Positions 1,063 to 12,400 of a DNA stretch of 64,000 nt are shown here, piece after piece (the stretch's first letter is position 1; every line of letters begins with the position of its first letter). The stretch comes from Caenorhabditis elegans (taxonomy: Eukaryota; Nematoda; Chromadorea; Rhabditida; Rhabditidae): the NCBI RefSeq assembly GCF_000002985.6, contig NC_003279.8:10602001-10666000 (forward strand), given 5' to 3'. The translations under genes were made by a program, and so were the position numbers. Below the pieces are notes generated by a model that was given only the letters and a program-made list of their open reading frames with translations, was not told the origin of the DNA and made no database searches.

Positions 1063-4000
1063 GTGCATCGATACATAAATCCAGCTGAAAAAGAAGGTGT
1101 TGTTCTGAAAAAAAGAATGAATACAATTCTGAAAAAGCGAGGATTCGATGCAGATTATGATCAATTGAAAAAGAATAATAAACCTGGAGATGTACTACTT
1201 TCATCATCAACTGGAGCAATTCTTATTGATTTAACACCATGTCCAACGAATATAAATAAGCGAAGTGGATCTAAAAAACCATATTTATTAAATCCTATGG
1301 TAAAAAATTAAAATTTGTAGTTTCTCAGAAACCTGATTCATTTTCAATTTCCAGGGAAAAACCACTGTCGCTGTATTGAACGAATTTGTGCAGCGACTTG
1401 CAAAAGGGACACTTTTGTATGAAATTGAAGATACTCGTAATATTCATTGCCCGTACAAAGCAACTGCTCTTCTTACAATGAAAATGTGCACACTCCGTGA
1501 AATGGCTGGTCAATGTAAAGAAAGTCTTGTGGTTCTTAGTGAGATTGCAGCGAATGATGAGAACAGTACGACGTATTCACAAGGTCTTCTGCCTGATTTG
1601 AGTGAGTATTTTATTTACTTGGATAGAAATTTTATTTGGAAAAAAGTAAAATTTTCAAATTATTTGGTCTATTTGAAGTTTTCCTAATAGTTTTAAAAAA
1701 ATTAAATATGCCAGAAGAAAATCCTACTTTTTGAATTTATAAATTAAATTTTTAAATGTTGATATTAAAAGTTAATCACAAAAAAAAAGGAAAAAAAGAA
1801 TTTGCGGTGGACGGGAAGGTGGGTGGGTGGAAAACAGAAAAAAACCGATACATTTACCAAAACCCTCGATAAGTCTTCGGTCAATAATTCAAATATCTTC
1901 CCAAAAGTGGCAATTATTAGAAAAAAACATAACGACCAAAGCCATAAAACAACGACAACACGGAAATTCTTTTACAACCATAGGAGAAGACGAGCAATAA
2001 TGTAATTTTATAATAGAAATTTTATTTTTTCTACCGATTTCTATGTAAAAAAGGAGGATAATTCAAACTTAATTTAAATTTTAAAATTATTTCCAATAAA
2101 AATCTGCATCACAAAAAAAAGGAAAAAAGAATTTGCGGTGGACGGGATTCGAACCCGCGCTCTGTTACCAGAATAGGATCGGGAGTCCTACGCCTTGACC
2201 GCTCGGCCACCACCGCGCGGATTCTGAAAAATAGTAATTAATTGAAATCTAGAACGCTTGGCGGATATTGATAGATTTACAGTTTATAGTGTTTCTAGTA
2301 AAATAGTGAAGAATAATTATAGAAGATTTAAGAGAGTTGTAAATTATTTATATTTTTCTTTCAATAATTATTTAGTTAGGTTTTCCAGAAGGTTTTGTTT
2401 TCATCAAAGGCGTAGGACTCCCGATCCTATTCTGGTAACAGAGCGCGGGTTCGAATCCCGTCCACCGCAAATTCTTTTTTCCTTTTTTTTGTGATGCAGA
2501 TTTTTATTGGAAATAATTTTAAAATTTAAATTAAGTTTGAATTATCCTCCTTTTTTACATAGAAATCGGTAGAAAAAATAAAATTTCTATTATAAAATTA
2601 CATTATTGCTCGTCTTCTCCTATGGTTGTAAAAGAATTTCCGTGTTGTCGTTGTTTTATGGCTTTGGTCGTTATGTTTTTTTCTAATAATTGCCACTTTT
2701 GTGAAGATATTTGAATTATCGACCGAAGACTTATCGAGGGTTTTGGTAAATGTATCGGTTTTTTTCTGTTTTTTTAAAGTTAATGTTTGGCAATAATAAC
2801 GTTTTGTTATTCGAAAATTATGATTTTCTTCGAAGACTGTGCGTTTTTTTAAAATGGTTTACCAATACAAAAGTTAATTTTAATTTTAAAATTCTAACTT
2901 TTAATTATTTCAGGGCGATTTCCAGTAGGAAGTGGAGTTGGTGCAAATAAAAAGACTGCTCGGCTGGTTGCTGCACGTGATGCTCTTTTGAAATTAATTC
3001 CAAAATTGAGAGTATCAGAAGATAATGTGTGTGATGGAATGGTTGAGGAAGATGGAACACAACAAGGATTCGAAGAACTCTTCAAAAAAGTGAAAATCGA
3101 TTCTCCGAATCTTGTTCAAATGTGCACACAATGTGCTATTCCAAAACCATATAATTTATTACGAGACGCAGTTAGTAGATCACTACGTTGGAATGGAATG
3201 GAATTAGTGATGAAAAAAGAAATGATTGGAAACGGAAGTCAACTGTCGAAAGTTATACTTATTCTTGGAGATATACAGGAAGAAGCTGAAGCTGTTGGTG
3301 TCAAACAGGCAACTCAGATGGCATCTCAGCGATTATTCAAGAAAATGCATCCGGAACTATTGACATATGGAAGTTTTTTGGAAATCTACGGAAGACTTGA
3401 TGATAAATCGAAAATTGATAATGCGAAGAAACAACATGACGAGGTAAAATTATTTTCAATTGATTCGAAATTTTTGAAAAAAATTGTTCAAAAATCCTGA
3501 AAAAAATCCGGAAAAATGTATGAAAAAAATAAGAAACCTGTAATTTTCCATGAGAAAAGATACACATTTCTTTTAAAAAAATAGAGAAATTGATCGGAAA
3601 TTATGAAAAATGAAGTTGTTCAAAATCAAAAAAACAGCAAACCGAAAAAAGAAAATTTCAAAAATATAAAATCATAAATTAATACAGGAAAAATATTAAA
3701 AAGAAAACGAAAATGTTTGATTGATTTTTAAATAATATATATTTTGTTGCAAAGTTTGATAAAAATCTGGAAAGCTGGCTAAACATTTTTATTTGCTGAA
3801 AAGTTGTTTGCGCTTTCAATTTTCCGCCAGTTTTTCAGATTCTTTTCGAATTTTTCAACTACAACAAATGTGTTTTCTTTATTTCTAATTTGAAAAGTTT
3901 GGATTACCATGCTGAAATAAGCGCTGTTGTTCAACATTCAAAATCTTATTTTCAGGTCGTACGTCTCCCAGATACTGGAAATCTGCTTGCTCCAAACTTC

Positions 4001-6492: not shown

Positions 6493-9400
6493 ATGCGGCT
6501 CTGGCTAGGTCTCCTAGCTGTGAGCAACATTGCTCTTGGTGGTTGGAATACTTCAGAAGATGCATCAATATGGGAAAATTATGTGGAAGATTCTAATTAT
6601 CACGAGTTTATTAGCTCGGAAAGCGGTAAGCTAATTTTGAAGAATTTTGGAATTTTTAAGGAAAATCGAAAGCTCTAAATTTAAATCATCTCATCACATA
6701 AGATTATTACTTGATTATAAACCATCATGCCTACGGGTTTTGAAGTTAGGGTCCCGCCGCGAATAGTGATATTACTGTACTAGTTAATTAACACTTTGTC
6801 AAAAATTGAATAAGCCCTTGGCAGGCACTCACTTTCCTTCAGTTTTTGCGCATATTTTGCATTTTCAGCGCCAATTATACCGTACCCGGTCTCGATGCGA
6901 CACTTTTTAATGCATAAGGCTGTGCGCCTTTAAAGATTACTGTAGCTTCAATCATAGGTTTTCTCTCAATTGGTGGAAAAGTATGTATTTTTATTCTGTT
7001 TTAATTTTAAAATCAAGTAAGAATTCTTTTTATCGAAAAACGATGAAAATTCCGCAGCACCGAGAGTTTGAAACTACAGTACTCTTTAAAGACTCACATA
7101 TTTTCTAACTCTGCAACAATGTTTCTTATCGAGACCTGGTACCGTATTTTTGGCTGAAAATTTGCAAAATTTTGCGTCTCCACAATATTAAAATATTCAA
7201 GAATTGACAGTACATATCTCGCTTATTCTCGTATTTCTCGAAAGTTTTAGGTTTTACAAGAATCTCTGGGAAATTTTAAAAAAACATATTACAGACTATT
7301 ATTTTGAAAATGTATTTTTCCAGAACGAGGACTCTTCCCGAACATTTTCAATTTGGCTACCAACTCCTTAATCACTGCGACAGATACCTGTGGTCAATAC
7401 ACTGCTGAAGAATATTGTAAACTAGTAGAACATGTCCTTCTACGAAAAACAACAAATACTCAATCACCTCAATGTGATATTTGTGATGCAAATAATGTTC
7501 ATAAGCGACATCCAATTGAGTATGCAATTGATGGAACACGTAGATGGTGGCAGTCACCATCACTGGCAAATGGATTGAGATTCGAAAAAGTAAATATTAC
7601 AATTGATTTGAGACAAGAATATCAAGTTGCATATATTATTCTTAAAATGGGAAACTCTCCACGCCCTGGAACATGGGTTTTAGAGAAATCATTGGATGGA
7701 GAATATTATGAGCCATGGCAATATTATGCAATGCAAGATGCTGAATGTATGAGACAATTTGGAATTCCTGCAACAACGGGAGTACCTAGATTTCAAAAAG
7801 AAGACGAAGTACATTGTACATCTGAATATTCAAAGATCACACCACTTGAGAATGGAGAAATTCATACATCTTTGGTAAATGGAAGACCTGGAGCTGAGAA
7901 TACAAGCCTTGAACTACAAAAGTTTACGAGAGCTCGATTTGTGAGGCTACGACTTATCTCGCCAAGAACTTTGAATGCTGATCTAATGATTATCAATAAA
8001 AAGTCGGATTCATTGGATAAATCTGTAACTATGAGGTTTGTTAGAGTGATCAAATTAAAATTATTTCTATTTTTCAGATATTTCTATTCAATTTCGGATA
8101 TTTCAATCGGAGGTCAATGTATTTGTTATGGTCACGCTGAGAGTTGTCCAAGTGATCCTGTTACCGGGGTAAATCAAATAACATATTTGATAAGTTAAAG
8201 ATTAATATTAAAAATATCTTGAGTACCCAAATTAACACAACGTAAAGGGAAAAATCAATAAAAAGCTTTTGATTTCGAGTATTTTAAACATCTGGCGAAG
8301 TTATTTTCTGTAAGGAAATATTATATTTCTAAAAATATATAAAAATGTCGGAAACGATTTTTTGTAAGTAATTACTTTTGTTGAGTGGAAAATCAAAAAA
8401 TAAAAAAACAAGTTTTGGTTTTAACCCAGTACAACTCTTTCAAACTTTTAAAGTACCTCTTTTCCAGCAATTCAAATGCGAATGTCGTCACAACACTTGC
8501 GGAGAGTCATGTAATCGTTGTTGTCCACTTTTCAATCAACTTCCATGGAAACCTGGTACCAATTCTCATCCGAATGTATGTCAACAGTGTCAATGTTTCA
8601 ATCATGCTCATTCATGTGTTTATGACGATGAATTGGATCGGAACAAGTGGTCAATAACTCCAGAAGGAGTCTATGAAGGTGGAGGTAGATGTCTGGAATG
8701 TGCACATAATACTGAAGGATTCAATTGTGAACGGTGTAAAGATGGATACTACAGACCTTCTGGATTATCACATTACAGGTAATTTTTAGACAAATTAAAA
8801 TAGGAATAGCTGTTGTGTGTCTGTGCTCTGAATGTTATAGTATCGTTCGATTTCCAGTAAGGGTGGACAGGCATTGCGTAGGCAGGCGTATTGTTGGTAT
8901 GCTTTAGGCGAATATGTAGGCAGGCATGGCGTTGCCGTGTACCTACAGAAAAGAAGTAAGCATGTATGCCGAAAGGGTACAAAGTAGGCAAGTTTATCAG
9001 GAATGATATAGGGCTAACGGTGTGCTTAAACTAGGCATGGCGTGACGTAGAAACATACTTCGGTAGGTACCCAAAAATGTTTCTGCCTGTTAAAATGTGC
9101 CTGTCTACAGTATTTGAACATTATTCTGTTTAGGCAATATCATTAGATTTTTAAAGTTCATGCCTAAAAACCCAAAAACATGCAATATCTTAAACTTTCA
9201 ATTTTCAGAGAAGACGCATGCCGTACCTGTGAATGTGACCCTGTTGGAAGTGTCTCTGATGCTTGTGTCCGTGATGATCAAAGCGCTGAAAATGGTCAAA
9301 AGCCAGGTGATTGCATCTGCAAACCAGGATTTGGAGGTCGTAGATGCGAGAGATGTGCTCCAGGATACCGTAATCATCCAACGTGTGAACCGTGTCCTTG

Positions 9401-12400
9401 CAATCGTGCTGGAAGTGTCAACTTTGATACATGTGATGGAGCAAGCTGTCAGTGTAAGGCCAACGTTGAAGGAATCTATTGTGATAGATGTAAAGCTGGA
9501 ACAATTCATTTATCGGCTTCCAATCCTTTGGGTTGTCAACCATGCTTCTGTTTTGGTCACTCGAGTACTTGTACCCAAGGAAAATGGAATAAAGCTCAGA
9601 TAATCAATAATATTGGTTGGCATTTGACTGACTTGACTGGAGGCAAAGATGTGAAGCCTGAAGTGGAAAATGGAGAAGTTCTGATGTTCAATGCAAATCA
9701 AAATCAAGATCGAAGCTTATACTACTGGAAGGCTCCTGATAGTTTCAAGGGGAATATGTTAAATAGTTATGGAGGATATCTTCATTATGATGTCTATTAT
9801 GTTCCTACTGAACAAGGTGCAACAGTTTTTGTAGCAGATGTTGCAATTGAAGGAAATGGAATCAAGATTGAATATCACTCAAGAATCGAATTCCTTCCAC
9901 GAGAGAAAATGACAGTTGCAATTCCAATGAGTGAACTGAGTGGATGGTACAATGCTGAAGCAAGAAGTCCAGTTGATAAAGCTGATATGATGAGAGCTCT
10001 CGCAAATGTTGACAGATTCACAGTTCGTGCAACATACCATCAACCTCAGTTACAATCCAGCATTTTTGGATTATCACTGGACACTGCTGTTCCTGCTCCA
10101 GATGAGATTGTTGAGGAGGACACATCACTCAAAGCACTCGCCTATCATACTCAAGATACTTTGATGGGTGGAGTAGAAGTATGTGAGTGCCCTGAAAACT
10201 TTGCTGGAAATAGTTGTGAATCTTGTGTGCCTGGATATCGAAGAGTCAACAATCAGCTGTATGGTGGAAGATGTGAGAAGTGTGATTGTCATGGAAACTC
10301 TGAAGAATGTGATCCATTCACTGGAGAATGTCTCAATTGTAGACATAATACCACTGGAAGTCGATGTGAACTCTGTAAACCAGGACACGTCGGAAATCCA
10401 TCTCGTGGAGGAGAACTCGGAGCCTGCGAGCAATGTGAATGTCCAAGTCTCGACTTGAATCCAAATCCTGAATGTATTTCAACTGAACTAGCAGTGTTAG
10501 GATCAGTTGCATCGAATGAAGACAACTATGTTTGTATAAACTGTCCACTTGGTTACGAAGGAAATAAATGTGAATACTGTTCCGATGGATTCTTCGAAGA
10601 TCCATTGACCGGAAAATGCATCGAATGTACCTGTAACGGGAATATCGATCCAATGGGAATCGGAAATTGTGATTCTGAAACCGGAAAATGCCTGAAATGT
10701 ATTGGTCATACAACAGGAGATTCCTGCGAGAGCTGCAAGGAGCATCACTGGGGAAATGCTCAACTTCACACTTGCAAACCATGCGGATGTCATACCCAGG
10801 GAGCTGTGAATCCACAATGTAGTGAGGAAAATGGAGAATGTGAGTGCAAGGAGAACTATATTGGAGCACAATGTGATCGATGCAAAGAGAATCATGGAGA
10901 TGTGGAGAATGGATGTCCAGCTTGTGATTGTAATGATACAGGAAGTATTGGAAGTGATTGTGATCAAGTCAGTGGACAGTGTAACTGTAAGCAAGGAGTT
11001 TTTGGAAAACAATGTGATCAGTGTAGACCTTCGTATTTCAATTTCACTGATGCAGGATGTCAGTTTTGTCATTGTAATATTTACGGATCGATTGAAGATG
11101 GAAAATGTGATCAGACAACTGGAAAATGTGAATGTAGAGAGAATGTTGAAGGAACAATGTGCGAAAAGTGTGCGGATGGATACTTCAATATTACCAGCGG
11201 AGATGGATGTGAAGATTGCGGATGTGATCCAACTGGATCCGAGGATGTCTCTTGTAACCTTGTCACAGGACAGTGTGTCTGCAAACCAGGAGTCACCGGG
11301 CTCAAATGTGATTCTTGCCTTCCGAACTTCTACGGACTAACATCAGAAGGATGTACTGAATGTGAACCGTGTCCTGCTCCAGGACAAGTCTGTGATCCAA
11401 TCGACGGAAGCTGTGTATGCCCTCCAAACACTGTTGGAGAAATGTGTGAGAATTGTACAACGAATGCATGGGATTATCATCCATTGAATGGATGTAAACT
11501 TTGTGATTGTTCGGACATTGGAAGCGACGGTGGAATGTGCAACACGTTTACAGGACAATGTAAGTGTAAGGCAGCATATGTTGGACTGAAGTGTGACTTG
11601 TGTACTCATGGATTCTTCAACTTCCCAACTTGTGAACCATGCGGATGTAATGCTGCAGGAACTGATCCATTGCAATGTAAAGATGGACAATGCTTGTGTA
11701 ACGAGATTGGTGAATGTCCTTGCAAAGTAAGTTTTTTTCAAATATAGTTCTTTCGGATAGTGACAAATGATTATAAACTAATTCCGCTCAAGATCATAAA
11801 AATTAAAATAATCTGCCCACTTTTGCACGATTTTAAAAACTGGCATCTGATATTATTAAAACCCTTCTATTGAATTCAAGATCAAGAAACTTTCATTAGA
11901 AGTTGGTTCCAATATGAACCGAAAAATTTACTGCGAACTCAAAATAAGACTGAAACTTCCAGAAAAACGTGCATGGAACGAAATGCGACCAATGTGGAGA
12001 AGGAACATTCAGTTTGGATTCATCAAATCTCAAAGGATGTACTGAATGCTTCTGCTTCAATCGAACCTCAAATTGTGAACAATCTGATCTTGTATGGCAA
12101 CAAATGTACGCAGAAGATCGTCGAGCTGTATTCCAAGAACCTTGGGAATTTTATACAAAGAAGCACAACATTAATCTATTGAGAGTAAGTTTGTCTCTGG
12201 ATCTCAGTTTAATTCATTTTAACTTTAGGAGAAGCCATCACATTTCAACAGTTATCCAACAGATGCTACACCACTTTATTGGCCTCTACCATCCACTATG
12301 CTTGGTGACAGAACCGCTAGTTACAATGGATTTTTGAGATTCAAAATTTGGAATGAGGATAACAGAAGAGGATTACATGGAATTCGACCGGATCAACAGT

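Follow-up and report, generated by a model that had tools for sequence, protein, structure and literature searches.

The window, by which we mean the whole stretch of Caenorhabditis elegans DNA analysed here, is 64,000 nucleotides long (C1:10602001-10666000), and whole-genome searches covered 100,286,401 bases in 7 contigs. Near its left end lies a single tRNA gene on the minus strand, within a predicted intron of a plus-strand gene resembling DGCR8/Pasha and accompanied by a truncated tRNA copy and the arms of a long inverted repeat (Table 1). A laminin-like gene lies downstream (7308-11747; Laminin_N, EGF_laminin and Laminin_B by Pfam).

The tRNA gene and its host intron

ARAGORN called one tRNA in the window. 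The Infernal search suggested in the earlier note for this locus was performed with cmscan against Rfam, and it likewise returned one tRNA at the same position and on the same strand (RF00005, 63 bits, E 2.7e-11), with a complete alignment to model positions 1-71 (gathering score, 29). The match is not a chance one. A complete class II tRNA with a CCC anticodon, an A discriminator and a structured variable arm had been described from the letters alone, and this description was confirmed by ARAGORN, Rfam and the sequence. The range first given, 2135-2216, placed the tRNA correctly and was one base short, omitting the discriminator.

All 20 of the 20 stem pairs are formed, one of them G-U. The body is not the class I body of an ordinary tRNA-Gly: the Rfam alignment contains an insertion in the variable region, and the variable arm is paired. 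It resembles ordinary C. elegans tRNA-Leu in A-box and D-arm sequence and, by the alignment, in A73, G37 and the long variable arm (best identity, 63.9%), but differs in its anticodon, which ARAGORN gave as CCC rather than a leucine anticodon. The breaks in stems, promoter boxes or terminator that would mark a pseudogene were not found in the window tRNA, where all of these are intact.

Open frames 1355-1601 and 2914 onward joined in frame over the predicted intron, which lies within the region matching the first dsRNA-binding domain of DGCR8. The right-hand frame (2898-3497) matched human DGCR8 with E 2e-10, and its Pfam dsrm match scored under the cut-off. On the left, the match of 1337-1684 to human DGCR8 was weak (E 0.14) but collinear, and a stretch with a WW domain, lying upstream of the window, also matched (E 1.1e-4). 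The in-frame join and the right-hand match support the claim that the tRNA lies antisense in an intron of a Microprocessor gene, which we take to be pash-1. Open frame 1021-1308 was rejected as a host exon, having no DGCR8 match and an unrelated best hit (E 0.15).

The earlier note had regarded the intronic antisense position as an extra oddity. By the figures in the available part of PMC4999229, the position is ordinary for worm tRNAs: of 609 C. elegans tRNA genes, 44% are intronic, a share that does not differ significantly from chance, and of these only 56% run in the orientation of their host. The same part reports that Pol III occupancy is lower at intronic tRNAs than at other tRNAs and, among intronic tRNAs, higher on the strand opposite the host than on the same strand. 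By its description in the available part of PMC12157501, the mir-1829 family is similar in consisting of Pol III type II units in C. elegans gene introns, and differs in that its product is a miRNA rather than a tRNA.

Table 1. Features of the window tRNA locus, its local copies and nev-type loci elsewhere in the genome (window positions unless a contig or locus is named)
Feature	Position	Strand	Basis or remark
nev-tRNA-Gly(CCC), class II, A73, 83 nt	2134..2216	-	ARAGORN and cmscan
Anticodon CCC (34-36), U33 before, G37 after	2181..2183	-	Rfam alignment and sequence
Variable arm UCUG-GUAA-CAGA, paired	2161..2172	-	folding and sequence
Internal A box TGGCCGAGCGG	2199..2209	-	sequence, read against the consensus
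Internal B box GGTTCGAATCC	2145..2155	-	sequence, read against the consensus
Discriminator A (A73)	2134	-	sequence
T6 run, Pol III terminator-like	2123..2128	-	sequence
Leader motif TTTTTCAGAATC, ending 3 nt ahead of tRNA nt 1	2220..2231	-	sequence and genome patterns
Predicted host intron, DGCR8/Pasha-like gene	1602..2913	+	in-frame exon join; DGCR8 matches
Truncated second copy (tRNA nt 21-83), without 5' acceptor strand and A box	2407..2469	+	sequence
Long inverted repeat, left arm, 366 nt, 99% complementary	1831..2196	.	
Long inverted repeat, right arm, 366 nt	2407..2772	.	210 nt between arms
Two other full CCC copies, left of the window	G000:C1:10601851-10601933; 10601133-10601215		2.3 and 3.0 kb leftward
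Second inverted repeat	L009 4334-4893 and 5175-5732		second arm extends to window 231
nev-type loci, Gly(CCC) x3, Ile(UAU) x4 intact			
nev-Ile-like copy, 5-nt anticodon loop, body otherwise 99% identical	C1:9558792-9558874 (L010 2793-2875)		
nev-type locus, CUU, A33 replacing U33	C3:6724135-6724220 (L065 53-138)	-	leader TTCAGAACC
nev-type locus, 11-nt anticodon loop, paired stems	C4:11721149-11721236 (L051 1516-1603)		family leader

Inverted copies of the tRNA

A query of 151 bases found four local copies, three of them full tRNAs and one truncated, arranged as two inverted pairs. The three full CCC copies are identical over 83 nt. The truncated copy had been absent from the earlier note. 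A second inverted repeat, more diverged than the one in the window, lies upstream in the DGCR8-like gene, with the WW stretch on one side and the exon at 1355 on the other, and it carries the other two CCC copies. Its arms are about 560 nt long and 94% identical; another comparison divided the repeat into segments at 97% and 86%. The inverted layout inside the host gene is best explained as the product of local duplication.

Folding of the inverted-repeat region in the window predicted -667.9 kcal/mol over 1051 nt, a value without a shuffle control at that length, and the model suggests that the host transcript could form a very stable hairpin in the intron. A hairpin between 1831-2196 and 2407-2772 is a candidate for ADAR editing or for Dicer.

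The nev-type family and its leader

We searched the whole genome with two A-box patterns that made no use of the leader. They gave 44 and 19 matches, among them at least ten nev-type loci; their reach is limited to class II tRNAs whose D arm has one of two closely similar forms. Odd anticodon loops (5 nt, 11 nt or A33) were present in 3 of the 10. All ten scored above the Rfam tRNA cut-off (53.1-63 bits); the RF00005 genome search scored 63 of 8106 candidates and is not a census. The locus with the 11-nt loop was called Pro or His by ARAGORN, depending on settings. Three stretches on contig C6 that are alike (G000:C6:1744577-1744642, 1993475-1993540 and 1994224-1994289) carry a perfect B box and TCCC, have no ARAGORN tRNA and are perhaps a tRNA-derived repeat.

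Across five distinct nev body types, 100 of 100 cells in the acceptor, D, anticodon and T stems were paired, a count that excludes the variable arm, which was folded but not counted, and 8 of the 20 pairs were altered on both sides. Another nev type, nev-tRNA-Ile(UAU), is like the window tRNA in body (75% identity), in A73, G37 and the variable arm, and in having the leader core at equal spacing. It differs in its UAU anticodon, in its number of copies (four intact, three on C1 and one on C6, with one further copy having a 5-nt loop) and in its acceptor stem, which is another one with compensating pairs. In a quick tree of nev bodies with tRNA-Leu and tRNA-Ser, the nev types did not form one clade: tRNA-Leu(UAA) and tRNA-Ser(GCU) grouped with the other nev types, leaving nev-Gly outside; the sequences are short and the support was mixed. 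The bodies alone thus do not establish that all of them descend from one ancestor.

Upstream of the bodies, TTCAGAA(T/C)C ended at a constant distance of 3 nt from tRNA nt 1 in 10 of 10 nev-type loci, and TTTTCAG was present in 9 of the 10 leaders. The control set comprised 54 A-box loci, less 8 without an ARAGORN call and the nev CUU locus, giving 45 other class II tRNAs, which include one '???' call and seven 'Thr/Ala' calls with introns that resemble intron-containing tRNA-Leu(CAA). TTCAGAA occurred within 40 nt upstream in none of these 45, ordinary tRNA-Leu included, while TTTTCAG occurred in 1 and CAGAA in 3. Genome searches combining the leader core with the B box or the A box returned nev loci in 9 of 10 matches (reversed control, 0) and in 10 of 11 (reversed control, 1). 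Conservation is stronger in the leader core than in the tRNA behind it, since the nev body types, the near-identical Ile pair aside, are only 61-83% identical to one another. Farther upstream of the leader, nev loci of different types show little likeness.

Pairing between leader and trailer was rejected as the reason for the leader, being predicted in only 6 of 10 precursors and with differing pairs. A bacterial promoter and terminator scan was uninformative on Pol III. In most nev members, TTTTTCAG/A also fits the worm 3' splice-site consensus.

Leucine charging, decoding and the retention of nev-tRNAs

A nev-tRNA-Gly(CCC) of C. elegans was reportedly described by Hamashima et al. in 2012 (NAR), a report known here through papers citing it. 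We searched the whole genome for CCC-anticodon tRNAs with a pattern that could miss odd genes, since it requires TGGT in the D loop, a purine at position 37 and a good match to the B box. It gave 7 matches: the three CCC copies and four sites without an ARAGORN tRNA. Because these three copies were the only CCC tRNA genes found by the pattern, the molecule of the window is almost surely the nev-tRNA-Gly(CCC) already published. The two share the class II body and the CCC anticodon, and the tRNA itself has no known difference. The tRNA finding is correct but already known, its class having been described before.

The available text of PMC4300185 (Hamashima et al. 2015) reports that nev-tRNA-Gly(CCC) is expressed at a low level, matures with CCA addition, is exported from the nucleus with about two-fold cytoplasmic enrichment, is charged in vitro with leucine only and is used in an insect cell-free system. 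Mature molecules are not assignable to one of the three identical genes. The placement in the nev-tRNA class and the leucine charging cited for CCC members, both made in the earlier note, agree with this text. The misreading of GGG as leucine, a further idea in the earlier note, was looked for there: neither the proteome of whole worms nor a purified GFP-LacZ protein with 12 GGG codons gave a validated Gly-to-Leu peptide, and the authors state that rare or local events would go undetected. More than 100 nev-type tRNAs in six nematode genomes are given in the available part of PMC4033280. In the available text of PMC4300185 we found no mention of the leader motif, the inverted repeats or the loop variants, and the words upstream, flanking and promoter are absent from it.

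Taken together, the locus probably encodes a weakly expressed, leucine-charged nev-tRNA that is kept out of bulk decoding and has a putative selected role. Pol III would use the internal A and B boxes of the tRNA to transcribe it antisense to the host mRNA, and the start would probably lie in or near the conserved TTTTTCAGAATC leader. The transcript would then be trimmed, receive CCA and be exported, as reported, and leucyl-tRNA synthetase would recognise the class II body and charge it with leucine, as reported in vitro. At normal growth the tRNA may be too scarce, or excluded, so that GGG would still be read as glycine via tRNA-Gly(UCC); the absence of misreading is reported, and scarcity or quality control is its presumed cause. 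Body and leader would be maintained, most simply by selection, for a role that we infer to lie outside bulk decoding.

We compared the Gly copies in pairs and found 0 mismatches over body and leader (83 + 15 = 98 nt) in each of the three comparisons, with flanks differing at 8.0-10.5% of aligned sites. The naive chance of 98 nt free of mismatches is 2e-5 to 3e-4, with sites treated as independent. The window copy and the leftmost copy have 1 mismatch in 91 aligned sites upstream and 37 in 272 downstream, and a conversion or duplication block over the upstream region and body would also explain this pair. Among the four intact nev-Ile(UAU) copies, two of which lie about 1.5 kb from each other, neither the body nor the 15-nt leader varies, and most of the farther flanks are unalignable. 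Selection would be the simple reading of the kept body and leader; gene conversion between the neighbouring Gly copies could maintain their identity without it. Anticodons are unchanged among the CCC copies and among the four intact UAU copies. They are not clearly free to drift, because the four intact nev-Ile(UAU) copies keep an identical anticodon, and the kept CCC and UAU anticodons count against a purely non-decoding role.

The nev-tRNAs might instead be near-neutral duplicates, drifted class II tRNAs tolerated because they are scarce, with a likeness owed to recent duplication or gene conversion and a leader that is a relic of the founder. We regard this as doubtful. The local inverted duplications, at 94-99% identity, show active copying, an Ile-type copy on chromosome I is 99% alike despite its 5-nt loop, and the reported expression is low (PMC4300185, available text), but such a history fits poorly with a leader core common to bodies so different (61-83% identity) and with so little likeness farther upstream, with perfect stems bearing compensating changes, or with the nev-tRNA conservation in nematodes described in the available parts of PMC4300185 and PMC4033280. 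That the gene is a silent tRNA pseudogene, which the earlier note had left open, is extremely improbable: its promoter boxes, terminator-like run and stems are intact, and CCA-ended, cytoplasm-enriched molecules are published, albeit at a low level, in the available text of PMC4300185, unless these come solely from the other two copies. Low expression of the molecule, and the lower Pol III occupancy of intronic tRNAs (PMC4999229, available part), are what such a pseudogene has in its favour.

Reading of GGG as leucine might also be confined to some cells, stages or stresses, as a low and useful mistranslation. The three Gly copies are identical and have a normal anticodon loop with U33 and CCC, which is consistent with it, as are the published leucine charging and insect cell-free use (PMC4300185, available text). 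We consider it unlikely, as the same text validates no such peptide in the worm proteome or purified GFP-LacZ, though low or local levels would escape, and as paired stems and the leader persist at the three loci whose anticodon loops are odd (5 nt, 11 nt and A33). Very unlikely is that the intronic inverted repeat is the real feature, its hairpin affecting the Microprocessor gene through dsRNA handling with the tRNA as incidental cargo. The long arms, 99% complementary and 210 nt apart, their predicted fold, for which the shuffle control is lacking, and the second inverted repeat upstream in the same gene argue for it; against it, the copies differ less in tRNA body and leader than in the rest of the arms, and, as a weaker point, no paper among the matches listed linked the intron to dsRNA or editing.

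We tentatively raise, as a possibility less likely than not, that nev-tRNAs are one co-regulated leucine-accepting RNA family, defined by the body together with the fixed 5' leader. Their selected job would not be decoding, the leader would set a dedicated start, processing or handling route, and the anticodon loop would be unconstrained in some members, where it could vary or break. The tRNA has been published already; what merits further work here is the leader signal together with the mirror-image repeats. The leader would offer a handle on the nev question, as a mutation can be confined to it and as it predicts shared control of genes spread over four chromosomes. The question it addresses is why worms retain leucine-charged tRNAs with foreign anticodons without measurable mistranslation.
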